Source: Bacteroidales bacterium (lineage in GTDB: Bacteria; Bacteroidota; Bacteroidia; Bacteroidales; PXBB01). Taken from it: a stretch of 63,291 nt of DNA. The translations under genes and the position numbers were made by a program. The notes below the pieces were generated by a model. That model did no database searches. It was not told where the DNA came from and saw only the letters and a program-made list of their open reading frames with translations. The first letter of the stretch is position 1, and each line of letters begins with the position of its first letter. Of the stretch, positions 36,138 to 50,805 are shown piece by piece. Location: positions 1 through 63,291 of the forward strand of contig JAQVVM010000026.1 of the NCBI GenBank assembly GCA_028698995.1, written 5' to 3'.

Positions 36138-37646
36138 TTACTTTTCATACAACAACTTATAAGCCTTGTATTGTGGATAATTCCATGAAAGAACACCTTT
36201 GCTTTCCCAACTGGTTTTGAATTTCTCCTTTTTACGTTCTATACGCTCTATATATTCATCTGGTGTCATGTATCTGTAATCAAAAGGAAACTTACTTTTT
36301 TGTATAGTGTCGATCTGATAAAGGACTTCGGGAGATTTATCCAGATATGGTAACGCTTTTGAAGATAACCTTGACAAAAAATTGAGATGAACAAATGAAC
36401 GTTCATAATTATTAAAATTATAACGTGCAATAATACAATCCCAGTTAAAAACGGAACTCAAAACCAATATAATAACTAAAGAAGCTGCATTTTGACGCAG
36501 TAAATAAAAGTTTGATTTGTTTGATTTCACCTTGATATAAACGGTATAAAGGCAATAAATTGTAAGAAGTAAAAACATATAAACTCCTATTCTTTTATAT
36601 GCCAATGAAAAATAATAAATGTACCAGTAATTGCGTATCCCGACCGAAATAGCTAAAACAGCATTTTGTAACAGCCATGTATAACTAAGATATTTAAGGA
36701 ATCTGTTTTTATTATAAAAGCTGATATTTCCTCTGAAGAAAAATAAAACCAATACAACTGACAATATAATTGAAAAGATGAGGAGATAAGTTCCCTCATG
36801 TACAAACTGCCGCAGGTATTGACCACTCCATTCAAAGTTAAACCACACCCATTTGATGTCAATAATATTGACAACGAGCAGTACTAAATTTAGAATAAGA
36901 AATAAAAAAACACCTGCTTTTAACTCATTATTAAGTGCGTTTATTGAAAATTTTCGTCTTATTCTTTTACGAATTCTAACAAAAAAATCGCTTTTCTTTG
37001 AATAATTCTCAATCCCAATGAAATATGGTGTTTGCATAAAGATAATCATGCTAAAAAGTAAACCCAGAAAAAAAGTTAAAAAAACAAGAGGGTCAAAACT
37101 TCCGAAAATTGCAACCATTATTTTGTTTATAAAATGCCCCATATTTATCAGCATTTGATCAAAAACAGGATTGGAATTCCTGTAAATAATTACAAACACA
37201 ATAATTACCAATAATGGCAATAGAAAAATCCTCGATCTGCGAAGATAAAGCCCCATTTTCTTATTCTTAAAACGCACATCTGAGATCTTTCTGACAAACT
37301 TTGAAGGCGCATAAATTGAACTGTTAAAGAACAGTACAAAAGCATGAAGAAATGACCTCACTTCAGGATAAATCTGTGTTCCAAGAAACAAAAAGAAAAT
37401 TATAAAATGCACAAAGTAAGTCCAAAAGGAATATACAGCTACAGTTGCAAAAGCTGTTATCAGAAAACTTGAAAATGCAATAACTGATGTAATCCCTTTG
37501 AGATTTATTTGTTTTAACAACAACAACATGGCAACTACAAAAAGTTCAAAAATCAACAAATTCAAACCAAGTGGTTGGTTGTGAAACAAAAATGCAAACA
37601 CAAGTGCTGTCAGAAAAACAACAATTAAAATTCCTTTTTTATTCAT
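36138..37646 (-). CDS. DUF4173/DUF4153-like multi-pass membrane protein
   Basis: The 502-residue protein has about eleven to twelve predicted membrane helices and a C-terminal soluble stretch of about 110 residues starting NWDCIIARYNFNNYERS. The pattern of helices with a terminal IARYN segment fits the DUF4173/DUF4153 families, whose function is unknown. The C-terminus contains FKTSWESKGVLSWNYPQ. No neighbour on this strand hints at a role; it converges with the DUF2723 gene with a 12-bp gap. A TPDEYIERIERKKEKF helix near the end may face the cytoplasm. The family call is moderate. Confidence 0.6.
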   Translation of the reverse strand: MNKKGILIVVFLTALVFAFLFHNQPLGLNLLIFELFVVAMLLLLKQINLKGITSVIAFSSFLITAFATVAVYSFWTYFVHFIIFFLFLGTQIYPEVRSFLHAFVLFFNSSIYAPSKFVRKISDVRFKNKKMGLYLRRSRIFLLPLLVIIVFVIIYRNSNPVFDQMLINMGHFINKIMVAIFGSFDPLVFLTFFLGLLFSMIIFMQTPYFIGIENYSKKSDFFVRIRKRIRRKFSINALNNELKAGVFLFLILNLVLLVVNIIDIKWVWFNFEWSGQYLRQFVHEGTYLLIFSIILSVVLVLFFFRGNISFYNKNRFLKYLSYTWLLQNAVLAISVGIRNYWYIYYFSLAYKRIGVYMFLLLTIYCLYTVYIKVKSNKSNFYLLRQNAASLVIILVLSSVFNWDCIIARYNFNNYERSFVHLNFLSRLSSKALPYLDKSPEVLYQIDTIQKSKFPFDYRYMTPDEYIERIERKKEKFKTSWESKGVLSWNYPQYKAYKLLYEK

Positions 37647-38145
37647 AATACTTAATCTAAAAATTTATCTAAAAACGCAACTTAATTCAAGATATTTTAT
37701 ATTCATCCCTATTCTTGGATTAATCTTTAATTATAAAAAATTACACAATATTGATATCTTGCCCGTTAGGCATAAATATCAATAAAAATTACCACTAAAG
37801 GGAAATGGTTTCCCCGTAAGGGAATTTATCAGGGAAACCTTTCTGCTAATACCAATGTCATTAGTGTCAAAGATGACAATATTCCCCAGCGGGGAATAAT
37901 ATTAATAGCCACGGGTAAGCGCAGCGACACCCGTGGCCAACAGGAAAGAATAAATGGGTTTTGGCACACAAATTTGTTGTATTTTCCAAATTTTGTGACA
38001 AAACATCATTATATGATTAACAGTTGTTTTCAAAATTATGTTATTAGTATCAACAATGACAAAATTCCACAGCGGGGAATAATATGAAACAATTCATTTT
38101 TTAACAACCTTAAATTTAGTAATTTTGCACCTTAATATTAAAAAA
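37647..38145. repeat. Gene-free stretch with short palindromes and a stem-loop repeat unit
   Basis: No gene is supported. Small palindromes GCCCGTTAGGC (37761-37771) and TTCCCCGTAAGGGAA (37810-37824) resemble those at 9811-9912. A larger repeat unit spans 37857-38040, with the start of a second unit at 38041-38086. A -7-like TAATTTTG at 38120-38127 may serve the CcmF-like gene. Confidence 0.6.
37857..38086. repeat. Dispersed stem-loop repeat, copy 1
   Basis: The unit contains ATTCCCC-AGC-GGGGAAT (37881-37897), a 9-bp stem GCCACGGGT/ACCCGTGGC (37908-37937) with a 12-nt loop, an AAATTTG-rich stem near 37966-38002, and the block ATTATATGATTAACAGTT (38011 onward). A second ATTCCACAGCGGGGAAT starts a further partial unit. 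Related units occur at 48188-48352 and 48394-48550. Confidence 0.7.
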
Positions 38146-40497
38146 ATGTCATACCTTAACGAACATTTGCTTCCTGGCACCGCAGGCAAGTTATCCCTAT
38201 TGATTGCATTAATTTTTGTGCTTGTTTCTACAGTTTTCTTTCTTCTGTATGACAGAAATAAAACCAACAAAAAACTTTATCTGTTTGCAAGAAATTTTTA
38301 TATCTCACATTTTATTCTCATAACATTTGCTGTTTCTGCCTTGTTTTATATCATTTTCAAAAATTATTTTGAATACCATTATGTATGGAAATACTCTTCA
38401 TTAAACACACCTGTTGAATATATCATATCTTGCTTTTGGGCAGGTCAGGAAGGCAGTTTCCTTTTCTGGATTTTTGTCCAGGGGCTGATTGGTTTATTTT
38501 TGATTTTCCAAATAAAAAGCAGGCATCCTATAGCATTAGTCGTGTTTTCACTATTCCAATTTTTGTTATTAATTAATATTATTGGTATTAATGTGGGTAG
38601 TACTACTATTGGAACAAGTCCTTTTGCATTATTGAGAGAGGCTTCAGATGATGCTGTATTCCTCAGAGCTGATTATCTAAGTTTCATAACAGATGGTAAT
38701 GGTTTAAACCCTTTATTATTAAATCCCTGGATGGTTTCACATCCCCCACTGATTTTTATAGGCTATGCGCTCACGCTGATACCATTTGCGCTTATTGTTT
38801 CAGCTTTGCAGGAAAAAAATTACATAGACATTATTAAACCTGCTATTTTTTGGACGGTTACAAACATATTATTTTTGGGATCAGGAATCATTGTTGGTGG
38901 TGCATGGGCTTACGAAGCGCTGACATTTGGAGGTTTTTGGGCATGGGATCCCATCGAAAATGCATCTCTTGTACCCTGGCTTTTGAGCCTTGGGGCATTG
39001 CATCTATTGATCATTGTAAAAAAAAGAAGACAGTATGTTATGGCCGCTTTTTCTTTTGTAGCTCTTTCTTTCTGGTTTGTTCTTTATGCCACTTTTCTTA
39101 CACGCAGTGGTATCCTAAGCCAGACATCTGTTCATTCGTTCAGCAACGACAGCACTTCTTGGTCGTTGATAGCTCTTTTAGTTGCTGCACCTATTATTTT
39201 TATCCCTCTGTTGATAAAAAGATATAACTTCTTTATTCAAAAAGAAAACAATAACTTTCTAACAAGGGATTTCTTCTTATATTTAGGAGCTGTTATTCTT
39301 TTACTTTCTTCATTTCAGATAATTTTTTCAACATCCCTGCCTGTATTTAATAATATTTTCGGCTCTTCACTTGCATTGCCCCTGAACAGCGAGAGCTATT
39401 ACAACATTTGGCAACTTCCTTTTGCTGCTATTATTTGCATACTGATTGCTCTTTCTCAATACCTATCTTTTGAAGAAAACAAGCTCATCCCTTTTTTGAA
39501 GAAAATTTTATTACCCTCATTGTTGTCATTATTAATAACTCTTGGAGTAGTATATGCTTTTAAGTACACCAAATTCTCATACATTTTACTCCTATTTTCA
39601 AGTTTGGTATGTGTATTTTTTACACTGGATCTATACCTCCGTTTTGGCAAAACAATCACCAATTTAACTGCGGCTATTGTTCATCTTGGTTTTGGCATTT
39701 TCATCTTCGGAATAATCTTGACCTTCAGTAACAAAACAAATCTGCGTTCAAATTCTGGAGACAGAAGTGAAAGTATTATTTTGCCTAAAGAAAAAATGGT
39801 AACGGCAGGACCTTATGGTTTTGTGTATTCAAAAAATGAATTAATAGGCAACAGACTTTATTTCAATGTGGATGTCTTTGAAAAACAAACCAATAAATTA
39901 AAACCTAAATTCAGCTTAAACCCGCATATAATCATTAATGAAAACATGGGAAATGTTTATGAACCTTCTATTCTGAAATTTGCCCGTAAAGATATTTTCA
40001 TCTACATAAGTCATGTTGACATTGAGCAAATACTTTCAAACGATCCTTATGCTTTTAAGGAGACATTAGAAATTACTATTAATGACACCGTCCACTTTAC
40101 AAATACCTTTTTAATCCTCGAAGACTTTGATGTTTCAGGAAATGCCGACAGTGAACTCATAAGTTTTTTTGGAATTAAAGCACAAATTAAAGTTCATAAC
40201 CCGATTGGTAATGACTTCCTGTTTACACCGACCTATAAAATCATTAACAATATTGTTCAATATGAAGATGCAATTAATGAAGAACTTGGAATTAAAATCC
40301 GTTTTAAGGAAGTAAGTAACACCCCAAATACCATTTTGATTGATATTTTTGAGCTTAACCCTGAATATATAGTTATTAAAGCAACTATTTTCCCATTTAT
40401 CAACATCTTGTGGCTGGGTGTTATAGTGATGTTATCAGGACTTATGATTTCTTTTTTTAAACATCTTAAAAAAGTAAGAAAAACTACGAACTTATAG
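38146..40497 (+). CDS. ccmF: CcmF/CcsA-type cytochrome c haem lyase
   Basis: The 783-residue protein has about fifteen membrane helices and the family signatures WAGQEGSFLFW (about 97) and the haem-handling WWD region GGFWAWDPIENASLVPWL (about 264-281), with flanking histidines such as VSHPPL. CcmF-type proteins attach haem to apocytochromes c on the periplasmic side. It is longer than E. coli CcmF (about 650), with a soluble region (about 540-760) before a last helix. ATG 38146 fits the family start MSYLNEHLLPGTAGKL; a TTG 21 bp earlier is less likely. No other ccm genes are adjacent. Confidence 0.92.
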   Translation: MSYLNEHLLPGTAGKLSLLIALIFVLVSTVFFLLYDRNKTNKKLYLFARNFYISHFILITFAVSALFYIIFKNYFEYHYVWKYSSLNTPVEYIISCFWAGQEGSFLFWIFVQGLIGLFLIFQIKSRHPIALVVFSLFQFLLLINIIGINVGSTTIGTSPFALLREASDDAVFLRADYLSFITDGNGLNPLLLNPWMVSHPPLIFIGYALTLIPFALIVSALQEKNYIDIIKPAIFWTVTNILFLGSGIIVGGAWAYEALTFGGFWAWDPIENASLVPWLLSLGALHLLIIVKKRRQYVMAAFSFVALSFWFVLYATFLTRSGILSQTSVHSFSNDSTSWSLIALLVAAPIIFIPLLIKRYNFFIQKENNNFLTRDFFLYLGAVILLLSSFQIIFSTSLPVFNNIFGSSLALPLNSESYYNIWQLPFAAIICILIALSQYLSFEENKLIPFLKKILLPSLLSLLITLGVVYAFKYTKFSYILLLFSSLVCVFFTLDLYLRFGKTITNLTAAIVHLGFGIFIFGIILTFSNKTNLRSNSGDRSESIILPKEKMVTAGPYGFVYSKNELIGNRLYFNVDVFEKQTNKLKPKFSLNPHIIINENMGNVYEPSILKFARKDIFIYISHVDIEQILSNDPYAFKETLEITINDTVHFTNTFLILEDFDVSGNADSELISFFGIKAQIKVHNPIGNDFLFTPTYKIINNIVQYEDAINEELGIKIRFKEVSNTPNTILIDIFELNPEYIVIKATIFPFINILWLGVIVMLSGLMISFFKHLKKVRKTTNL

Positions 40498-40514
40498 ACT
40501 AGTCAGAATTACAC

Positions 40515-40537
40515 AAAACATTGCATGACAATGTTTT
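40515..40537 (+). terminator. Hairpin after the CcmF-like gene
   Basis: AAAACATTG (40515-40523) and CAATGTTTT (40529-40537) form a perfect 9-bp stem with a 5-nt loop, 17 bp after the ccmF stop. The rest of 40538-40776 holds nothing recognisable. The stem is weak and the T-run is only in the arm, so termination is plausible rather than certain. Confidence 0.4.
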
Positions 40538-40776
40538 ACGCTATGCAAATTTAGAATTTCCGATAGACCTGAGTCCTATATGAGGGTGTTCCTGTTACAT
40601 TGTATAAAATATTTAAGTGCTTTAGTCAAGACAATTATAAAAACTCAGTTCTTTTTTGTGTCAGGTATTACAGGAAATGAATTGTCCCGTCCTAATAAAC
40701 CAATTATAAAAACCCTCAAATAAGTATAAGATTCAGGAAAAAATGTATTTTTGCCCTTGATTAAAAAATTGAGATT

Positions 40777-41775
40777 ATGAGGTCGTTACTTTTGTTTATA
40801 ACTTTTTCAAGTATTTCCTTAAATATTCTTGCTCAATTTCCCCCTTCTGCCGGTCAGACTGGCACAACTGCCATTCATAAAGACAGCAGTGTTTTTACTG
40901 CTTGGGCTTCCGGTTGCACTGTTGAAAGAGGACCTCAGGATTTATCCAACCTATCTCTGGGTCTTGCAATCGCAGGAGAAAACTGGATGGCCACAGGAAA
41001 ATCAGGTGTCAATGGCATTGTCAGCCTTGGCGATGGTGGCTTTGCCGTTCTTAACTTCGAATTCCCAATTACCAATGGATTGGGTTGGGATTTTGCAATT
41101 TTCGAAAACAGCTTCACGGATGATTTCCTTGAATTGGCTTTTGTCGAAGTAAGTTCAGATGGTTTGAACTATTTTCGTTTCCCTGCCACTTCTCTAACTC
41201 AGGACAGTATTCAGGTTGGGGGCTTTGGAACTATTGATGCCACCAAAATTGACAACTTGGCCGGCAAATACAGGGCGCAATTCGGAACACCTTTCGATCT
41301 TGATGAACTCAAAGAACAATCCGGACTGGATGTAAACGCAATAACGCACGTTAAAATCATAGATGTTGTAGGTAGTATTTCTAATGAATTTGCCACCTTC
41401 GACCAATACGGCAATAAAATAAACGACCCCTTCCCTACCCCCTTCCCATCAAGTGGTTTCGATCTCGATGCCGTTGGCGTTATTCATAATTCGAATACCA
41501 ATATCAACAACTTATCAGATGGTAATTTTGTGTTTAAGTTTTTCCCAAACCCTGCATCCAACTTTATCTCTATAGAGTTTTTGGCAAATAAAAATGAAAA
41601 TATCATTTTATCAATTATTGACATCACTGATAAAATTCTATTGCAGCAATCAATCACTGCTACTACAGCTATGAACTACTGCACATTTGACATCTCCCAA
41701 CTCCCTGTTGGTATTTATATTATGCAAATAAAATCAGATACTTTCACCTCAAATGAGAAGCTAATTATTTACTAA
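40777..41775 (+). CDS. T9SS-secreted surface protein of unknown function
   Basis: The 332-residue protein has a signal peptide ending SLNILAQ and a domain (about 20-240) with phrases typical of a Bacteroidota cell-surface family: GIVSLGDGGFAVLNFEFPI, WDFAIFENSF, LAFVEVSSDGLNYFRFP and GFDLDAVGVIH. The final 80 residues are a type A T9SS sorting domain (FKFFPNPASNFISIEFL ... LPVGIYIMQI). In other genomes such proteins often lie near TonB-dependent cobalamin receptors, but none is present here. Acidic loops such as FDLDEL could bind calcium. The function is unknown. Confidence 0.8.
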   Translation: MRSLLLFITFSSISLNILAQFPPSAGQTGTTAIHKDSSVFTAWASGCTVERGPQDLSNLSLGLAIAGENWMATGKSGVNGIVSLGDGGFAVLNFEFPITNGLGWDFAIFENSFTDDFLELAFVEVSSDGLNYFRFPATSLTQDSIQVGGFGTIDATKIDNLAGKYRAQFGTPFDLDELKEQSGLDVNAITHVKIIDVVGSISNEFATFDQYGNKINDPFPTPFPSSGFDLDAVGVIHNSNTNINNLSDGNFVFKFFPNPASNFISIEFLANKNENIILSIIDITDKILLQQSITATTAMNYCTFDISQLPVGIYIMQIKSDTFTSNEKLIIY

Positions 41776-42325
41776 TTTACCATTTTCAATTTTATTTATA
41801 CGAATTGAATCAAAGGAATCATTATCTAAAACATTTTCATCCTGACTTGTCCAATTTTGCGCGGTCTTACTTTTGATTTAGTTTCAAATATTTTACACTT
41901 TAACATTTTTAAGCTTTTGTCAATTTTATTGCAATGAAGATCCCGAAGAGCGTAAGCGGCCTTTTAAAAATTTGCCTTAAAAACAAGGGCTTCATTATTT
42001 ATGATTAAAAGCCAATATCAAGGTAAAAGTAACCAACGAGTGAGGTAGCTGAAATTAATTTTTATTCAGTATTTATCCCGAACGGCTTTGGTTACGTTAA
42101 TAATGAAGACCGATAGTTTTTAGCAAATTTTTAAGCAGCCTTGACTTTTGCTCTACTTTGCGTCAAGGCAAAGTAGAAATATTAAAAAATAAAGTCTTGC
42201 ACCTTTAATGAAAAGCTGATAATTTCAAAATTTTTATGGACATTTTTATAAAACTGAATTGTAAAAACTTTTAAAATTACAGACATTATTACCGGAATTC
42301 AAAAATACTTTAATCAATTCCTTTA
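41776..42325. other. Gene-free stretch containing repeat X copy 1
   Basis: No gene is supported in these 550 bp. The central 41936-42182 is a copy of a repeat also present at 48718-48960; the flanks are plain AT-rich DNA. Confidence 0.6.
41936..42182. repeat. Dispersed repeat X, copy 1
   Basis: This segment matches 48718-48960 along its length. Shared blocks are CGGCCTTTTAAAAATTTGC, AACCAACGAGTGAGG, ATCCCGAACGGCTTTGGTT and AGCAAATTTTTAAGCAGCC. The first and last blocks are imperfect inverted repeats of each other, so the unit can fold back. The right end adds a small CCTTGAC/GTCAAGG stem. No coding potential is seen. Confidence 0.75.
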
Positions 42326-43204
42326 TCAATCCTCTAAATACCCAAAATTGCCATTATTAAAATCTTCATATGCTTGAAGAATTTCTTCTTTTGTATTCAT
42401 TAAAAATGGACCATAAGGATAAATCGGCTCTTCAATCGGCTCGCCACTCATCAGCAAGATAACAGACTTTTCTAAAGATTCAATCTTGATATCAGTGCCA
42501 TTATTTTCGAATAATGCCAATTGGTCTGTATGTGCTTTATGTTTTTCATTCAGGCATATAGAACCTTCTACTACAAGAATAGCTGTATTATGGTCTTGCT
42601 TTAAACTCATTGTAAAAACCGAACCTTTTTCAAGCCTGATATCAAAAAGGTTAACATCGGTAAATGTTTTTGCTGCCCCTTTGATATCTTTAAAACTTCC
42701 TGCAATCACATTCACAACACCTTCATTATTATTCAGAACATACTTCCCCATTTTAGAATGAGGTATCTCCTGATACCTTGGCTCTGTCATTTTGTGAGCT
42801 GCCGGCAGGTTAATCCATAATTGAACCATCTGAAAATCACCTCCCTTTTCCACATAACTTTGGTGATGATATTCCTTGTGTAGAATGGCTTTACCAGCTG
42901 TCATCCATTGCACATCTCCTTCTGATATTATGCCGCCATGTCCTGCACTATCGTGATGGGCAACTTTTCCATGATAAGCAATAGTCACAGTCTCCAAACC
43001 TCGGTGTGGATGGACACCTACACCACGTTTCTCTGAGGATGGCGGATAATGCATTTTGGCATTGTAATCCAATAAAAAAAATGGACTCATCCTTGTATCT
43101 GAGTGTATGCCTCGTGGAAAATAATTATGCACTTTAAAACCATTGCCCACCCAATGAAAAGGAGGCGGATTTAAGATGCTTTCGACTTGTTTTATCGTAC
43201 CCAT
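42326..43204 (-). CDS. Pirin family protein
   Basis: The 292-residue protein is a two-domain cupin with the pirin metal motif GVHPHRGLETVT and further ligands expected in DSAGHGG and the HKEYHHQ segment. Other pirin phrases are ISEGDVQWMTAGKAILHKE and FQMVQLWINLPA. Bacterial pirins bind iron and may act as quercetinase-like dioxygenases or redox-dependent regulators; the role here is not known. It is the last gene of a leftward group DoxX, ppa, pirin with gaps of 38 and 41 bp. Confidence 0.92.
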   Translation of the reverse strand: MGTIKQVESILNPPPFHWVGNGFKVHNYFPRGIHSDTRMSPFFLLDYNAKMHYPPSSEKRGVGVHPHRGLETVTIAYHGKVAHHDSAGHGGIISEGDVQWMTAGKAILHKEYHHQSYVEKGGDFQMVQLWINLPAAHKMTEPRYQEIPHSKMGKYVLNNNEGVVNVIAGSFKDIKGAAKTFTDVNLFDIRLEKGSVFTMSLKQDHNTAILVVEGSICLNEKHKAHTDQLALFENNGTDIKIESLEKSVILLMSGEPIEEPIYPYGPFLMNTKEEILQAYEDFNNGNFGYLED

Positions 43205-43245
43205 GTGATTATTTAATGTTTCTTAAATTAAACCTTTATTTACTA

Positions 43246-43911
43246 TTATCGCTCAAACATCATGCGCTCGATGTATTCTCTATAATCATCCATCGCTAAG
43301 GATATTAAATCATAAGCTTCTTGATTGTTATAAATATGTGTAATGACACAACGCTTTAGGTTGTCACCTGGCATTTGTTTGTAGGAAAGAAAATAATGCT
43401 TCAGACGGTTTACAACTGCCTCTGGTATTTCGCTAATATCCTTGTAATGAGAATATAGAGCATCATCTTTAAGTACTGCAATTATCTTATCATCGGCTTC
43501 ATTTCCGTCAATCATTTTAAAACCCCCTATGGGCCTTGCCCGAGCAAGTATATCTCCATGTGCAACATCCTTTTCTGTCAGGATGCAAACATCCAATGGA
43601 TCTCCATCGCCTTTTATGTCGGGATTATTCAGTGCTTGAGCACTTAATTCCCCTACCCTCTTCCCGCAATAGGTCTGAGGTATAAAACCATATAAAGCGG
43701 GCAATATGCTTGAAAACTTCTGAGGTCGGTCAATGGTCAGATATCCTGTTTTTTTATCTATCTCATACTTTACAGTATCTGTTGGAACCATCTCTATAAA
43801 ACAAATTAACTCTTCCGGCGCATCATGTCCTATGTCAATACCATGCCAGGGGTGTGCTTTATACCTTAATCCTAACAACTTCCCAATGGGGTCAATCGGA
43901 ATTTTAGCCAT
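43246..43911 (-). CDS. ppa: Inorganic pyrophosphatase
   Basis: The 221-residue protein is a soluble family I pyrophosphatase with the metal signature GDGDPLDVCIL and the substrate-contact phrases FIEMVPTDTVKYEID and YGFIPQTYC. It hydrolyses PPi to two phosphates and pulls biosynthetic reactions forward. It is somewhat longer than E. coli Ppa (about 176) with N- and C-terminal extensions, as seen in other Bacteroidota. It lies between DoxX and pirin genes on the same strand. Confidence 0.93.
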   Translation of the reverse strand: MAKIPIDPIGKLLGLRYKAHPWHGIDIGHDAPEELICFIEMVPTDTVKYEIDKKTGYLTIDRPQKFSSILPALYGFIPQTYCGKRVGELSAQALNNPDIKGDGDPLDVCILTEKDVAHGDILARARPIGGFKMIDGNEADDKIIAVLKDDALYSHYKDISEIPEAVVNRLKHYFLSYKQMPGDNLKRCVITHIYNNQEAYDLISLAMDDYREYIERMMFER

Positions 43912-43949
43912 ACTTTATTATTTAATAAATGAATATTTTATTTTGAAAA

Positions 43950-44360
43950 TTACTTCTTAATATAATGGTCAATTGAAAATTTACCCCCTCCGGTAATAAG
44001 TAAAGTAATATAAAAAATAAGGTATATAAGGCTAAGTTCCTTGGCTGCAAATGGATCTGCACCATGAAAAACAAAGGCAGCCACAGCCATGGTTACAATT
44101 AAAGGGATGACAACAAAACGTGTGGCAAGACCCAAAATTAAAAATATGGAACATACGAACTCAGCAAAGACAACCATATATAAAGACATTACAGGCCCAA
44201 CGCCTATAGGGTCTAAAAAGTTCTCACCACCACCTGAAAGTAATAATTTTAACTTGCCATAACCATGCGTTATCATAAAAATACTGATTGCCACTCTAAA
44301 AATTAAAAGCCATACATGAAAAATACCCTGAGGATATGTTGTTTTAAATAATGATTTCAT
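43950..44360 (-). CDS. DoxX family membrane protein
   Basis: The 136-residue protein has four predicted membrane helices and DoxX phrases: LRVAISIFMITHGYGKL-like first helix, VFAEFVCSIFLILGLATRF, and VTMAVAAFVFHGADPF. DoxX proteins are small membrane proteins linked to redox homeostasis or quinol oxidation; the exact activity is not known. It is the first gene of the leftward group with ppa and pirin, and diverges from pabB across a 96-bp gap. Confidence 0.88.
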   Translation of the reverse strand: MKSLFKTTYPQGIFHVWLLIFRVAISIFMITHGYGKLKLLLSGGGENFLDPIGVGPVMSLYMVVFAEFVCSIFLILGLATRFVVIPLIVTMAVAAFVFHGADPFAAKELSLIYLIFYITLLITGGGKFSIDHYIKK

Positions 44361-44456
44361 AATAAAAAAATATTTGTTAATAAATTATTGAACTTTAAAA
44401 CTGCAAAATTAGCGAGATAATCACCATTACTTACTATTTTTGTATTTTTTAACATT

Positions 44457-45758
44457 ATGAGAATAAAAAGAAGCTATCATATAGATTCCCTTGAAATCTT
44501 CTTGGAAGGTCTCATTGAATGGTTAAAAGACAAAAGTCCTGTTGCATGTTACAACAGCAATGGTTTTATTGACAAATATGGTGCTTACAACCTCATTGTA
44601 GGTGTTGGTGCAATAAGCGAAATTTCAGTTTCATGCAAGGATCAATGGAAGGATCTAAAAAAATTTCTGGATTCTAAAGACAACTGGTTCTTCGGTTTTC
44701 TGAGTTATGAAACTAAAGATTTTATTGAAAATCTCTCTTCTTGCAATGAAGATGGTATAAAAATGCCCGTTATTCATTTTTTTATCCCTCAAATTGTTTT
44801 TCTTTTTAAAGATAATTTGCTTGAAGTCGAGTTCAACCCACTTTATTATGCCGAAAATAAAGTTGAGACTATTCTAAGTGAAATTAAAAACAAAAAAAAG
44901 AACAGTAACTGCTCCATTAACGCACATGTTAAACCCCGATTGAGTCGTGATGAATATTTGGAAAAAATCAAAGAAATTCAAAAACATATTAACTATGGTG
45001 ACATTTATGAAATGAATTTCTGTATGGAGTTTTTTGCTGAGGCATTTGAAAATATTTATCCGGAAAATCTTTATAAAGCCCTGAATGAAAAATCCCCAAA
45101 TCCGTTTTCTTGTTTCTACAAAATCAACGAAAAAGCCCTGATTTGCTCGAGTCCTGAACGTTTTCTACGTAAAATCAATTCAAAAATAATCTCCCAACCC
45201 ATTAAAGGTACTGCACCCCGTAGTCCTGAAAAAAAAATTGACAGAGAATTCGCTAAAGAACTTTTAAAAAGTGAAAAAGAAAAAAGTGAAAACGTAATGA
45301 TTGTGGACTTGGTGCGAAATGACCTTTCAAAAATAGCTCAAAAAGGGAGTGTATGTGTTGATGAATTATTCGGTATTTATTCATTCCCATTTGTTCATCA
45401 AATGATTTCTACTGTTTCTGCAGAATTAAAACATGGCATTGACTTTACTGATGTTATTAAAGCCTCTTTCCCTCCAGGCTCAATGACAGGAGCACCAAAA
45501 ATAAGAGCCATGGAAATTATTGAAAAATATGAAACCAGAAGACGCGGTCTTTATTCTGGCACTGTTGGCTATATCTCCCCTAACAAGGATTTTGACTTTA
45601 ATGTTGTTATCAGAAGCATTCTGATGGACACACAAGCAAAATACCTTTCCTTTCATGTGGGTGGAGCAATCACAGCTCTTTCAGATCCTGAAAAGGAATA
45701 TGAAGAATGTTTACTGAAAGCGGAAGCCATGTTAAAGGTTTTAAAACAGCAAGAATAG
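44457..45758 (+). CDS. pabB: Aminodeoxychorismate synthase component I (chorismate-binding)
   Basis: The 433-residue protein has the chorismate-binding fold: CSSPERFLRK, PIKGTAPRSPEKKIDREFAK, ENVMIVDLVRNDLSKIA, and FPPGSMTGAPKIRAMEIIEKYE. Lys250 in PIKGT is the residue that distinguishes aminodeoxychorismate synthase from anthranilate synthase (PIAGT), so a folate-pathway role is favoured. The N-terminal third is short and diverged, as in many Bacteroidota PabB proteins. No glutamine amidotransferase or lyase gene is adjacent. tilS follows after 76 bp. Confidence 0.88.
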   Translation: MRIKRSYHIDSLEIFLEGLIEWLKDKSPVACYNSNGFIDKYGAYNLIVGVGAISEISVSCKDQWKDLKKFLDSKDNWFFGFLSYETKDFIENLSSCNEDGIKMPVIHFFIPQIVFLFKDNLLEVEFNPLYYAENKVETILSEIKNKKKNSNCSINAHVKPRLSRDEYLEKIKEIQKHINYGDIYEMNFCMEFFAEAFENIYPENLYKALNEKSPNPFSCFYKINEKALICSSPERFLRKINSKIISQPIKGTAPRSPEKKIDREFAKELLKSEKEKSENVMIVDLVRNDLSKIAQKGSVCVDELFGIYSFPFVHQMISTVSAELKHGIDFTDVIKASFPPGSMTGAPKIRAMEIIEKYETRRRGLYSGTVGYISPNKDFDFNVVIRSILMDTQAKYLSFHVGGAITALSDPEKEYEECLLKAEAMLKVLKQQE

Positions 45759-45834
45759 AAAACACCTTTGGGGAATACCCTAATTTATTTCAAAATATAT
45801 TGCAAAGCAATTTATCTTTGTATTAAAATTTAAA

Positions 45835-47175
45835 ATGATGCTAAAAGCATTTAAACAATTTATTAATGACAATGAATTATGTAGCATTAATGAAAAAATC
45901 ATTCTTGCTGTCAGCGGGGGCATAGATTCAGTCGTCATGACACACCTTTTTCACAAAGCCGGATATGATTTTGCTTTGGCGCATTGCAATTTTCAATTAA
46001 GAGCTGAAGAATCAGAAGAAGACATGCATTTTGTTGAAAGCTTGTCAAAAAAAATTAAAGTCCCTTTTTATAAAATAAAATTTGACACAAAAAAATTTGC
46101 TTTAAAAAATGGAATCTCAATTCAAATGGCTGCCAGGGAACTTCGTTTCAATTGGTTTAAAGAACTTTTAGTCACAACGGATTTCGACTATATCGCATTG
46201 GCTCATCACAAAAACGATGTAGCTGAAACACTTCTTATTAATCTTATCCGTGGAACAGGAATCAGCGGACTTCACGGCATTTTACCTAAAACAGACGGAT
46301 TTATCCGCCCATTGCTTTTTGCAAAAAGAGAAGAAATTGAAGAATATGCTGTACTTAACAATATCTCTTTCCGTATCGACAGTTCAAATAATGAAGATAA
46401 ATACATAAGAAACAAATTACGCATTAACATCCTGCCCCAATTATCCCAAATCAATCCGGCTATTGTTGATACTTTTTATAAAACTGCTGAAAACATCTAT
46501 AATACCGAACAGATTTTTAATCAAAAATGTGAAGAAGTTAAAAATAGGGTCCTTACTGAAAATAACGGCAGGTTCTCCATCAACAAAAAACTTCTGCAAG
46601 AACAAAAATATCATGCAACGTATCTATACCATATTTTAAAAGATTTTAATTTCAACTCAAGTCAAGTAGCTGGCATGTCAAATGCTTTAGTTAAACATTC
46701 AGGGGCAATTTTTCACTCTGACACTCATATTTTGATTAATGACCGTGATTGTTTTATAATTCAACCGGTCGAAAAAACAGATATCTTAGAATATCAAATA
46801 GACAAGAACACACCTTGTATTATTACACCTATTTTCAGCTTGAAATTTGAATTATTGAATCTTGCAGATATTAATGATTATAAAACCACTGACAATTTCT
46901 CGGCATTCCTTGATGCATCTAAATTGCAATACCCCCTGACACTCAAAAAGTGGAGAAAAGGAGATTCATTTGTACCGCTCGGGATGAATCATAAAATGAA
47001 AGTGAGCGACTTCCTTATCAATAACAAAGTTAATCTTCTTGACAAAGAAAAGATACTTACATTATGCAATGGAAATCATATCATCTGGCTGGTTGGAATG
47101 CGAATAGATAACAGATACAAAATTAATGACAAAACAAAATCTGTTCTTAAAATTACTTTCAAAAATAACATCTAA
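45835..47175 (+). CDS. tilS: tRNA(Ile)-lysidine synthase
   Basis: The 446-residue protein has the PP-loop SGGIDS at residues 27-32, the HCNFQLRAEESEEDMHFV block, and HHKNDVAETLLINLIRGTGI. The C-terminal substrate-recognition region ends with KWRKGDSFVPLGM and the KVSDFLINNKV block. TilS attaches lysine to C34 of tRNA-Ile(CAU), allowing AUA reading; it is essential. Two ATG codons stand in tandem at 45835 and 45838. A TATCTTTG at 45813-45820 fits the -7 consensus, so it may have its own promoter. Confidence 0.95.
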   Translation: MMLKAFKQFINDNELCSINEKIILAVSGGIDSVVMTHLFHKAGYDFALAHCNFQLRAEESEEDMHFVESLSKKIKVPFYKIKFDTKKFALKNGISIQMAARELRFNWFKELLVTTDFDYIALAHHKNDVAETLLINLIRGTGISGLHGILPKTDGFIRPLLFAKREEIEEYAVLNNISFRIDSSNNEDKYIRNKLRINILPQLSQINPAIVDTFYKTAENIYNTEQIFNQKCEEVKNRVLTENNGRFSINKKLLQEQKYHATYLYHILKDFNFNSSQVAGMSNALVKHSGAIFHSDTHILINDRDCFIIQPVEKTDILEYQIDKNTPCIITPIFSLKFELLNLADINDYKTTDNFSAFLDASKLQYPLTLKKWRKGDSFVPLGMNHKMKVSDFLINNKVNLLDKEKILTLCNGNHIIWLVGMRIDNRYKINDKTKSVLKITFKNNI

Positions 47176-47217
47176 AACCTCTAATCTTCAAAAAAAACTT
47201 GAATTAAAAAAATAAAC

Positions 47218-47976
47218 ATGAACAAAAGCATAAAAATTGGTATTATAGGCGGTTCAGGCCTTGGAAATTTGTCTCTTTTCGAAAAATCTGAAGAAAAAAT
47301 GCCACAAACACCTTTTGGAGAAATTTCCTCCCCCCTCCTTTGCGGAAAAATATTTGACAAAGACATTGTAATTCTCGGCCGACATGGCAAGGAACATACA
47401 ATTCCCCCTTCTCAAGTGAATTACAGAGCAAACGTATGGGCTTTGAAAAATGAAGGCTGTACTCACATTTTAGCTACAACTGCTTGTGGAAGTCTTACTG
47501 AAGAATTTTCTATGGGAAATTTTATCATCCTCGATCAATTTATTGATTTTACAAAATTTCGAAAAAATACTTTTTTTGAAAAGTTCGATCCCCACAGTCC
47601 TATTCATACCTCAATGGCTGAGCCTTTTGATAAAAACTTACGAAAAGCTCTGATTGAGGCAGCTGCAGAAACAAATGTCAAGTATCATGAAAAAGGCACG
47701 ATGATTTCTATTGAAGGTCCTCGCTTCTCTACCAGAGCAGAATCCAGAATGTTTAAACTTTTTGGTGCCCACCTGATAAATATGACTGTTGCTACTGAAT
47801 GTATTTTATCAAACGAACTTGCAATTCCTTATGCGGCTATTGCTTTAGTTACTGATTATGATAGCTGGAAAGATGACGGACATGAGGTTACATGGGAAAC
47901 TGTTCTTGAAAACTTTAATAAAAACATGCCTGTACTTAAGGAAATTCTTTTAAAAGCTATTTCAAAAAATATCTGA
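47218..47976 (+). CDS. mtnP: S-methyl-5'-thioadenosine phosphorylase
   Basis: The 252-residue protein matches the MTAP/PNP family: GIIGGSGLG at the N-terminus, ILGRHGKEHTIPPSQVNYRA, ATTACGSL, SIEGPRFSTRAESRM and the nucleoside-binding NMTVATECILSNEL. It cleaves methylthioadenosine to adenine and methylthioribose-1-phosphate in methionine salvage. Other purine nucleosides remain possible substrates. The last 33 bases of the gene occur again, unchanged, at 48961-48993 beyond a repeat island. Confidence 0.92.
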   Translation: MNKSIKIGIIGGSGLGNLSLFEKSEEKMPQTPFGEISSPLLCGKIFDKDIVILGRHGKEHTIPPSQVNYRANVWALKNEGCTHILATTACGSLTEEFSMGNFIILDQFIDFTKFRKNTFFEKFDPHSPIHTSMAEPFDKNLRKALIEAAAETNVKYHEKGTMISIEGPRFSTRAESRMFKLFGAHLINMTVATECILSNELAIPYAAIALVTDYDSWKDDGHEVTWETVLENFNKNMPVLKEILLKAISKNI

Positions 47977-48028
47977 AACGGCTCTTAGTTTTTAAATATC
48001 ATGCTGTTTATTGCTTCTAAAACTTCAT
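47944..48028. repeat. 85-bp direct repeat, left copy
   Basis: This copy holds the genuine 3' end of mtnP (through TGA at 47974-47976), a short gap, and a 44-bp remnant of the 3' end of the GT9 gene (reverse strand, EVLEAINSMIFKN-stop). It aligns with 48961-49045 without gaps, with four differences, all transitions, all in the GT9 remnant. Confidence 0.9.
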
Positions 48029-48187
48029 TTTGATAAATTGTCCGTACGTCTTTAAAATTCATAACCTTTTTAATGTTATTAAAAAGTAAAGAATTACCAA
48101 GAACAGTAGCACATATGGAGGATGTCTCAAAAATGAAAAACTTGTCATTCTGAGAACTCAGACCTTTTGTAAAAGCTCGATAAAGCA

Positions 48188-48352
48188 GCGATGACAGTAA
48201 TTTTCCCGAAGGGAAAAAATGTTAATAGCCACGGGTTTTCAACCCATGGCGAAATGAAACGGAAGTTAATTGTTTTGGTACGCAAATTTGCTGTGTTAGC
48301 AAATTTCGCAACAAAACATAATTATATGATTAACAGTTATTTGCAAATTTCT
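48188..48352. repeat. Dispersed stem-loop repeat, copy 2
   Basis: It contains TTTTCCC-GAA-GGGAAAA (48201-48217), a stem GCCACGGGTT/AACCCATGGC (48228-48250), an AAATTTGCT/AGCAAATTT stem (about 48283-48307), and CAAAACATAATTATATGATT and AACAGTTATTT, closely matching the end of copy 1. Confidence 0.7.
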
Positions 48353-48393
48353 GTCATTGGTAGAACTCAGACCTTTTGTAAAAGCTCGATAAA

Positions 48394-48550
48394 GCAGTGA
48401 TGACATATATTTTCCCGTAGTGAAAAAATGTTAATAACAACGGGTAAGCGCAGCGACACCCTTGGTAAAAAGGAAAGAAAAAATGGGTTTTGGCGCATGA
48501 TTTTGTTTGAATTTTTTACAAAATCTGTGACAAAATATAAACAACAGAAA
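48394..48550. repeat. Dispersed stem-loop repeat, copy 3
   Basis: It shares GGGTAAGCGCAGCGACACCC and AAATGGGTTTTGGC with copy 1 and the leading TTTTCCCG and TGTTAATA blocks with copy 2. Its stems carry mismatches (ACAACGGGT against ACCCTTGGT), so it is more decayed. Confidence 0.65.
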
Positions 48551-48717
48551 ATCAAGCATTTATAAAAAATGTCATTGGTAATGAAACGAAAAATCTGAAT
48601 ATCAATATGTTGAGATTTTTAACTGAGTTCAAAATGGCAAAAAACAATACTTTTGAGACATCCTCTTTTTAGCACAAAAATCTTTAAAAGGATAAAAGGG
48701 AGCATTTAGCACTCATG

Positions 48718-48960
48718 TTTACGAAGACCGAAAACGGCCTTTTAAAAATTTGCGTTAAAATGGAGGGGTTCATTACTCAACTAAAAAATCATTTTTCAGT
48801 TAATTAAAGCAACCAACGAGTGAGGGTGTTGTATCTGAATTCAACAAAGAATCCATCCCGAACGGCTTTGGTTGCGCCGGTAATGAAAGCCGAAGATTTT
48901 AGCAAATTTTTAAGCAGCCTTGACTTTTTGTTACTTTTTTGTTAAGAAAAAAGTAAAAAC
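48718..48960. repeat. Dispersed repeat X, copy 2
   Basis: Matches 41936-42182 with the same block order and the same fold-back ends. Its right edge abuts the right copy of the 85-bp direct repeat exactly at 48960/48961. Confidence 0.75.
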
Positions 48961-49045
48961 ATTCTTTTAAAAGCTATTTCAAAAAATATCTGAAACGGCT
49001 CTTAGCTTTTGAGCATCATGCTGTTTATTGCTTCTAAAACTTCAT
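48961..49045. repeat. 85-bp direct repeat, right copy
   Basis: This copy holds a 33-bp remnant of the mtnP 3' end (EILLKAISKNI-like codons through TGA at 48991-48993) followed by the genuine 3' end of the GT9 gene (stop at 49002-49004). See the left copy at 47944-48028. Confidence 0.9.
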
Positions 49046-49988
49046 GCTCCCTGATATCTACCATGCACTTAAAATGCTTTTTTGGACATTCTTTAAACCC
49101 TATTTTACTACATGGTCTGCATTTGACATCAAGATTCTCAAAAATTATTGAATTCTCCTTAGTACTTGTGGGCAAATAAGGAAACATGCCAAAAGAAGGC
49201 ACTGTGTTACCCCAAAAGGAAATAATCTTTTTATTTAATGCTGCTGCAATATGCATCAAACCGGTATCATTTGTAAGAACAACTGTCGAATGTTCAATTA
49301 CTCTTACAGACTCATCAAGTGAAAGTTTACCGCAAGCATTAATAATATTTGGATTTCCTTCCGAAATGGAGCTTCCTCGAACTGCATCGTTTGAGTCACC
49401 CAACAATACAACTGGGAAAGTAATATTCTTGCAAATGTTAATGATTTTGTTTACAGGAAAAAGCTTTGTGTTGTGTTTGCCCCCAATTATCCATGCAATA
49501 AATGGTTTGTCAGGAATATACCCTACAGGAGCCAATATATTTTCTGATATAAAATAATCCAGGCCTAGATAATCATTACAAACTCCTAAATAGGCTACTG
49601 ATGCCATATACCTGTCCACTATATGAACCGGGGGCATCTTGTTAACTTTAATATTAACCAAAAGCCATTTCTTAATATTTAATTTATTAAAACTTGTGCT
49701 TTTGATACCGAGTTTAAAAGTCAGTAAATGAGAACGAAGGTTATTATGTAAATCAATAATATCTGTATAATGTTCATTTTTTAAAATATGTACCAGGTCA
49801 TTCAAATTATTTTCAAGGCAAATGACTTTATCAATATATTTATTATGTTCAAGCAAACCCTTGTAAACAGATTTAGTAACATAATGAATTGTACAATCCT
49901 GTAGTTGTGTTTTAAGACACCTTAATACTGGGGTTGTCAGTACAATGTCGCCAATCGAACTGAATCTGATAACAAGAATCTTTTTCAA
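49002..49988 (-). CDS. Glycosyltransferase family 9 (heptosyltransferase-like)
   Basis: The 328-residue protein has the GT9 layout: RFSSIGDIVLTTPVLRCLK at the N-terminus, IDLHNNLRSHLL near 95, and the C-terminal donor site VLTNDTGLMHIAAALNKK with SFWGNTVPSFGMFPY. A cysteine-rich stretch follows (KCRPCSKIGFKECPKKHFKC), common in Bacteroidota members. Such enzymes add heptose or related sugars to the lipopolysaccharide core or other surface glycans in the cytoplasm. It diverges from tatD across 43 bp. Its last codons are duplicated, with changes, at 47985-48028. Confidence 0.9.
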   Translation of the reverse strand: MKKILVIRFSSIGDIVLTTPVLRCLKTQLQDCTIHYVTKSVYKGLLEHNKYIDKVICLENNLNDLVHILKNEHYTDIIDLHNNLRSHLLTFKLGIKSTSFNKLNIKKWLLVNIKVNKMPPVHIVDRYMASVAYLGVCNDYLGLDYFISENILAPVGYIPDKPFIAWIIGGKHNTKLFPVNKIINICKNITFPVVLLGDSNDAVRGSSISEGNPNIINACGKLSLDESVRVIEHSTVVLTNDTGLMHIAAALNKKIISFWGNTVPSFGMFPYLPTSTKENSIIFENLDVKCRPCSKIGFKECPKKHFKCMVDIREHEVLEAINSMMLKS

Positions 49989-50031
49989 GAGCTATTTTTT
50001 TACAAATGTAAATAAATTATAATTTTGCAAT

Positions 50032-50805
50032 ATGATTTTTGTTGACACACACACACACCTTTACCTCGAACAATTTGACAATGACAGAAATGAAACTGTA
50101 AAAAGAGCTGTTGAAAGCGGCACAAAAATTATGTTGCTACCTAATATAGACACAGCATCTGTAAAGCCTATGATGGAAATGGCGCATTTATATCAAGGTA
50201 TTTGCTTTCCTATGATAGGATTACATCCAACATCAGTAAAAAAGAGCTTTCATAACGATTTGATCGCTTTGGAATTGCTTTTGAAAAAACACACTTATTG
50301 TGCAATTGGTGAAATAGGCATAGACCTCTATTGGGATATAACTTTCAAAAATGAACAAAAGGAAGCTTTAAGACATCAAATTAAATGGGCTCATAATTAT
50401 AATCTACCTATAGTTATTCATTCCCGAAATGCCCTTGATGACATATTGAACGTTCTTAATGAAAATAGCTTACCAAAAGTCAGGGGTGTTTTTCATTGCT
50501 ATCCGGGCGATTCCAAAACAGCTGAAAAACTTGTAGAAATGGGCTTTATGATTGGTATTGGTGGTGTTGTGACTTACAAAAATTCAAAAATGCCTGATGT
50601 CATTAGAACTGTTGGGTTAAATAATATATTACTTGAAACTGATGCCCCATACCTTACTCCAATACCTTTCAGAGGACAAAGAAACGAAAGCGCTTATATC
50701 CCCATTATTGCACAAAAAATTTCAGATATTTTACAAATACCCTTAGAATTAGTGGCAAATCAAACAACAATGAATGCCCGAAAATTATTTAACCTTAACC
50801 TTTAA
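50032..50805 (+). CDS. tatD: TatD family metal-dependent hydrolase
   Basis: The 257-residue protein shows all TatD blocks: VDTHTHLYL (H7, H9), GEIGIDLYWD, VIHSRNALDD, GVFHCYPGD and LLETDAPYLTP. TatD proteins are Mg-dependent deoxyribonucleases with 3'-5' exonuclease activity, also linked to D-aminoacyl peptide processing. The TAA stop shares its last base with the ATG of the asparaginase gene, so the two are translationally coupled. Confidence 0.93.
   Translation: MIFVDTHTHLYLEQFDNDRNETVKRAVESGTKIMLLPNIDTASVKPMMEMAHLYQGICFPMIGLHPTSVKKSFHNDLIALELLLKKHTYCAIGEIGIDLYWDITFKNEQKEALRHQIKWAHNYNLPIVIHSRNALDDILNVLNENSLPKVRGVFHCYPGDSKTAEKLVEMGFMIGIGGVVTYKNSKMPDVIRTVGLNNILLETDAPYLTPIPFRGQRNESAYIPIIAQKISDILQIPLELVANQTTMNARKLFNLNL

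Follow-up and report, generated by a model that had tools for sequence, protein, structure and literature searches.

A nested, hairpin-replacing MITE within a larger RNA-like mobile element probably accounts for a repeat-ended block in a Bacteroidales genome

Between two convergent genes of a Bacteroidales bacterium lies a 548-bp block (48118-48665) with perfect inverted termini. Which piece of DNA moved to this place, and how did it come to be bounded by such ends? An earlier note, made from the sequence alone, regarded the block as a possible MITE that had picked up, or was built from, another repeat family. We analysed this locus within the whole stretch of 63,291 nt (contig JAQVVM010000026.1, hereafter the window) and within its source genome, a draft of 119 contigs. 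The best explanation, to which we assign a probability of about two in three on the basis of sequence comparison, is a MITE that replaces hairpins and is nested in a larger, RNA-like mobile element. All features are compiled in Table 1.

Table 1. Features of the repeat-ended block and its surroundings (positions of the window)
Feature	Position	Strand	Basis or remark
Left 15-nt terminus GAGGATGTCTCAAAA	48118-48132	+	exact complement of right arm
Right 15-nt terminus TTTTGAGACATCCTC	48651-48665	-	exact complement of left arm
Phosphorylase-superfamily gene, 3' end duplicated	47218-47976	+	PF01048, E 8.5e-46
Glycosyltransferase family 9 gene, convergent, its end duplicated	49002-49988	-	PF01075, E 1.8e-25
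Left copy of 92-bp direct duplication	47937-48028	.	sequence comparison
Right copy of 92-bp direct duplication	48954-49045	.	sequence comparison
Larger insertion, ~925 bp (inferred)	~48029-48953	+	sequence between duplication copies
First hairpin-chain unit	48143-48351	+	hairpins 48143-48196, 48203-48215, 48230-48249, 48272-48316
Second hairpin-chain unit	48352-48569	+	hairpins 48352-48405, 48412-48424, 48440-48461, 48487-48535
MITE internal hairpin (TGTCATT..AATGGCA)	48570-48639	+	uninterrupted in C15:35332-35451
Hairpin chain without 15-nt termini	37856-38003	+	window
Conserved unit with structured core	48666-48956	+	model R1 match 48720-48956
3' hairpin, loop can pair with upstream CTTGA (pseudoknot or alternative pairing)	48912-48956	+	
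Second window copy of structured core	41842-42177	+	left end CTGACTTGTCC at 41842-41852

The arms of the block are 518 nt apart. Two independent perfect 15-nt inverted pairs no more than 1 kb apart occur in the window, whereas 40 dinucleotide shuffles of it yielded a mean of 0.2 such pairs (0.05 with at least six G/C) and a maximum of 1. The exactness of the termini, as the earlier note had it, is thus real and above the shuffled expectation. Its view that no transposase is encoded holds as well, since the longest ORFs overlapping the block comprise 69 and 62 aa. Genome-wide, the exact 15-mer is confined to this block, which is a single copy in its 548-bp form. With one mismatch, 12 further sites were found, so that the termini do occur elsewhere in the genome; with up to three mismatches there are at least 125 sites per strand among the matches listed, compared to 76 and 77 for the reversed control.

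The interior is likewise as had been described: two stem-loop copies (48143-48236 and 48352-48445) are 88% identical at a spacing of 209, and the same stem-loop without termini near 37857 belongs to the hairpin chain at about 37856-38003. Each of the two units is about 210 bp long and forms a chain of four hairpins, with TGTCATT as the boundary at 48143, 48352 and 48570. A 120-bp form without the units is present at C15:35332-35451, and one-unit intermediate forms are present in C24. These forms fit a history in which the MITE would have gained its two internal units at TGTCATT through recombination or copying.

What escaped the earlier note is the conserved unit directly 3' of the block and a direct duplication around everything. 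The two 92-bp copies are 92% identical and contain the last codons of the phosphorylase, whose product we take to be MTA-phosphorylase-like, an 8-bp gap and the last codons of the convergent glycosyltransferase. The simplest reading is that a single piece of about 925 bp was inserted here with a 92-bp target duplication; since the duplicated segment is the gene junction, both convergent genes stay whole. Nothing in the fetched loci strongly matches its first 89 bp (48029-48117), and recognisable CTGACTT ends were not found on it. An orthologous empty site was not found in relatives, the best three relatives of the phosphorylase gene having no adjacent glycosyltransferase. Both flanks of the block (on the left, about 9 nt) belong to a larger repeated element, which is in turn bracketed by the host duplication; consequently, the block was presumably not the mobile unit here. 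Of the idea of a MITE built with other repeats, the family of MITE-like termini and the foreign repeat in the interior have stood, but the 548-bp block was probably not what moved to its present place.

Long direct duplications are not restricted to the window. Complete relatives of the larger element end in CTGACTTCGACA..TGTCGAAGTCAG or in C[CT]GACTTGT[AC]C..GGACAAGTCAG, and long direct duplications (29 to 183 bp) lie beside the ends of eight of ten complete elements ending in CTGACTTGTCC or CTGACTTCGACA. Four of these are contained in one contig each (C17, C27, C28 and G001:C46, the last with 32 bp). At G001:C73 the duplication spans about 100 bp and one copy is interrupted by a MITE, and at G001:C99 it is partial (119 aligned bp at 76%), again with a MITE between. 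Two more, of about 70 bp (C113 and C58) and about 90 bp (C43 and C96), were each pieced together from two contigs, the shared flank being also the ground for the pairing. No duplication was seen at the complete elements C117:36627 and C96:11314. At G001:C99, the element has MITEs at matching places on its two sides, but these are oppositely oriented, as though one of them had been turned round.

The fetched loci of the source genome contain 27 islands of the conserved core, 24 of them testable. At five of the 24, unique sequence is duplicated on the two sides: the window (85 bp as aligned there), C15 (84), C17 (183), C27 (115) and C28 (29). No long duplication was found around the second core copy of the window. 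A 69-bp duplication surrounds the chain in C66 and may itself be a repeat. In other genomes, a direct repeat of some kind is present at 12 of 40 loci. Several of these are short or stem from repeat sequence, and no direct repeat in these 40 loci is tied to element ends. Long duplications are therefore shown only for elements of this family.

The 290 bases 3' of the right end of the block are a repeat with 44 sequence matches in the genome. A model of the core, built from 25 copies of the source genome, has 34 matches there. With the source genome included in the counts, 12 of 60 genomes have a match at E 1e-3; at E 1e-6, 51 of 295 genomes of the order do. In an alignment of 46 sequences from this and other genomes that was fitted to the model, 95.6% of the cells are paired, both sides change in 53 of 59 pairs, and the covariation score is 0.609, compared to 0.155 after shuffling and at most 0.129 with the partners slid. 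The base that follows TTGA in the 3' hairpin pairs with the one preceding the loop TCAA (TTAA in some) in 44 of 47 copies (T-A 20, C-G 15, A-T 8, G-C 1), the remaining three being G-G and all from one genome. This supports the formation of a pseudoknot or of two alternative hairpins. Rfam 15 was searched with E up to 1 against positions 37000 to 50500 of the window and with E up to 0.1 against 10 loci; the first search had no match, and the second had none on the core. Among the neighbours of the core in 40 loci, no conserved gene was found, each cluster of ORFs being limited to at most two genomes.

Hits from a pattern scan of genome contigs were mostly due to chance: the model, applied to 80 of 105 loci, matched strongly in three, of which two come from a single Bacteroidales assembly. 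A strong match at L202 (764-1020) lies on a 3-kb contig labelled Candidatus Izimaplasma; its likeness to the copies in a Bacteroidales assembly makes mis-binning likely. In L326 and L327 (G207), two core copies each lie close together in opposite orientation. The copies in L272 and L282 (G019) adjoin sequence that presumably corresponds to a conserved region of RHS-type proteins. Four contigs (C51, C113, C95 and C58; ends of L131 and L133, starts of L071 and L149) break inside the 3' hairpin of the core, apparently at one and the same insertion sequence, as if it targeted this hairpin.

The MITE family itself comprises nine 121-bp copies with ends of the type GAGGCT[GT]TATCAAAA and 98-100% identity, besides diverged members. 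Each single strand of the 121-bp copies is foldable as one hairpin (z -6.3). The slots in which these copies stand were sought by comparing the joined MITE flanks with all fetched loci; the gap edges are ambiguous by 1-3 nt. An unoccupied sibling site was found for four of the nine young copies, and each of these four has the MITE at the position of a 12-23-bp palindrome in the sibling: C66 lacks GCCACGGGTTTTCAACCCATGGC of its sibling, C96:18962 lacks GTTCCCCGCTGGGGAAC (16-17 bp), C17 lacks TTCCCGTCAGGGAA (14 bp) and C75 lacks GTCCATACGGAC, the other 84 positions being identical. The fetched loci yielded no sibling for the remaining copies (C85, C1, C105, C100 and C96:137). Two diverged members show the same arrangement. 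The diverged member C15:35332 stands in place of GCAGTCCTCCGGAATGC, and at G001:C73 a 183-bp member occupies one copy of the duplication where the other copy has ATTCAGTCTGAAAGACTGAAT.

The block of the window shares CACATATGG on its left with the leader of other copies of the larger element, and on its right TTTTTAGCAC plus the core, as in C15. Most other copies of the larger element have a 17-bp hairpin at this place. Because of the right flank shared with C15 and the shared CACATATGG, the block appears to lie in the same slot as the C15 member, with less support on the left, where the identity covers about 9 nt.

An ordinary MITE history, in which a missing DDE transposase moved the block alone to this place through its 15-nt ends and the block took up the repeats later, would account for the perfect termini, the missing ORF and the many relatives, and BrickBuilt of Porphyromonas gingivalis is described as just such a MITE with a trapped repeat (PMC4596501). 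However, the block is flanked by element sequence rather than host sequence, no consistent short target duplication of fixed length was seen by eye in the flanks of ten copies, and siblings differ by a whole palindrome instead of a clean insertion; we consider this history unlikely. Also improbable is a reading without replacement, in which palindrome and MITE are independent insertions into one and the same empty site or the palindrome was deleted after the MITE had entered it. The flanks alone leave the direction of change unfixed, and the gap edges carry the ambiguity mentioned above. Against this reading, C75 and C17 have lost two different palindromes of one kind of repeat, both present in the sibling C56, and in either case the boundaries coincide with the stem base; secondary deletions would need to end at the stem base in every case, and the siblings listed include none with an empty slot. 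The repeat in C56 (L084 1740-1930) is an array of G+C-rich hairpins of 12-14 bp, every ~45-50 bp in AT-rich DNA, and it is two hairpins of this array that are replaced by MITEs in the sibling copies. It is very improbable that the 15-nt arms are merely halves of bidirectional transcription terminators and unrelated to mobility. Similar G+C-rich stems with T runs do occur downstream of genes at C11, C85 and C94, and the right arm of the block is followed by TTTTT, but nine near-identical dispersed 121-bp copies imply copying, and the arms of the block are far apart.

The long flanking duplications could, in turn, have arisen by replication slippage or recombination at hairpin-rich DNA and would then not be target duplications. 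The region is filled with hairpins, the lengths vary, and the duplications are absent at two of ten complete elements and at most islands. On the other hand, they abut element ends at several places in two genomes, and the CTGAC..GTCAG ends are, as judged by eye, usually bordered by C and G, respectively. Slippage or recombination is therefore the less probable origin, although we give it some weight.

We thus return to the nested arrangement. The aligned sequences themselves show that the elements are nested, that direct duplications flank them, that slots are occupied at some sites and unoccupied at others, and that the core is conserved and covaries; the events behind these features can only be proposed. 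The block would be an expanded copy of some age from the MITE family, a non-autonomous hairpin family whose members insert by substituting for short DNA hairpins that are already there, exchanged at the base of the stem. This block, or an ancestral copy, would have entered the leader of a second mobile element carrying the conserved, structured RNA-like core, and this second element would later have inserted between the convergent genes with the 92-bp target duplication, leaving both genes whole. We infer this order, MITE into leader and then insertion of the whole, because the slot is common to C15, C24 and the window. For the exchange of hairpins we favour a structure-specific nuclease or transposase that may cut an extruded hairpin at its base. 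For the larger element we favour nicks far apart on the two strands, which would yield long duplications once filled in; target-primed retroposition also fits their variable lengths. The core may act as RNA. A more far-reaching version, in which a shape-reading enzyme of this lineage swaps in a larger hairpin with neither target duplication nor loss of flank, and a second element with a new, order-wide RNA produces duplications of ~30-180 bp, is put forward tentatively, its chances being somewhat below even.

No transposase for the MITE family or the larger element was found in these searches. Inspection of near-matching ends at 11 loci (ORFs listed for L003 only) revealed no full insertion sequence that shares these ends, and no autonomous element was found between CTGACTTGTCC or CTGACTTCGACA ends, including around two Y1 proteins.

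If the replacement rule is true, mobile DNA may target the shape of a hairpin, whatever its sequence, trading hairpin for hairpin. This would explain the origin of mosaic palindrome arrays in Bacteroidota-type genomes and point to a novel structure-specific transposase. Long, variable target duplications would allow an element to sit between tightly packed genes with neither broken, and the core, given its occurrence in the sampled genomes of the order and the lack of an Rfam match in the scanned stretches, would represent a new RNA family. Hairpin-for-hairpin replacement and the long, variable duplications look new: in the open-licence literature we found neither MITEs described as replacing hairpins nor bacterial duplications of this length, and no account of the structured core RNA.

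Several known systems resemble parts of this arrangement. BrickBuilt is an intergenic, MITE-like element with a trapped unrelated repeat and no transposase inside, its arms resemble those of a resident IS family, and some copies reportedly have short duplications (PMC4596501). The block shares the MITE-like character, the trapped repeat and the missing internal transposase; by contrast with the present MITE family, the part of that source used here mentions no hairpin replacement (PMC4596501). REP, REPIN and BIME repeats with their RAYT transposases form dispersed palindromes in mosaic arrays (PMC3116915, PMC2817692). Dispersed palindromes and mosaic arrays are found here as well, and the source genome encodes Y1 transposase-like proteins (five matches to PF01797, at five places), but the elements described here measure 120-548 bp, have 15-nt arms and replace other hairpins. 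REP-targeting IS elements insert into the palindrome and keep it. Such elements, IS1397 among them, have REP palindromes as their targets (PMC1525189). The palindrome is the target in both cases, but here it is gone. SINE-like retroposons arise by target-primed reverse transcription. In contrast to these, the larger elements here have inverted ends, and we regard the likeness as a candidate one, based on a structured RNA-like unit combined with long, variable target duplications.
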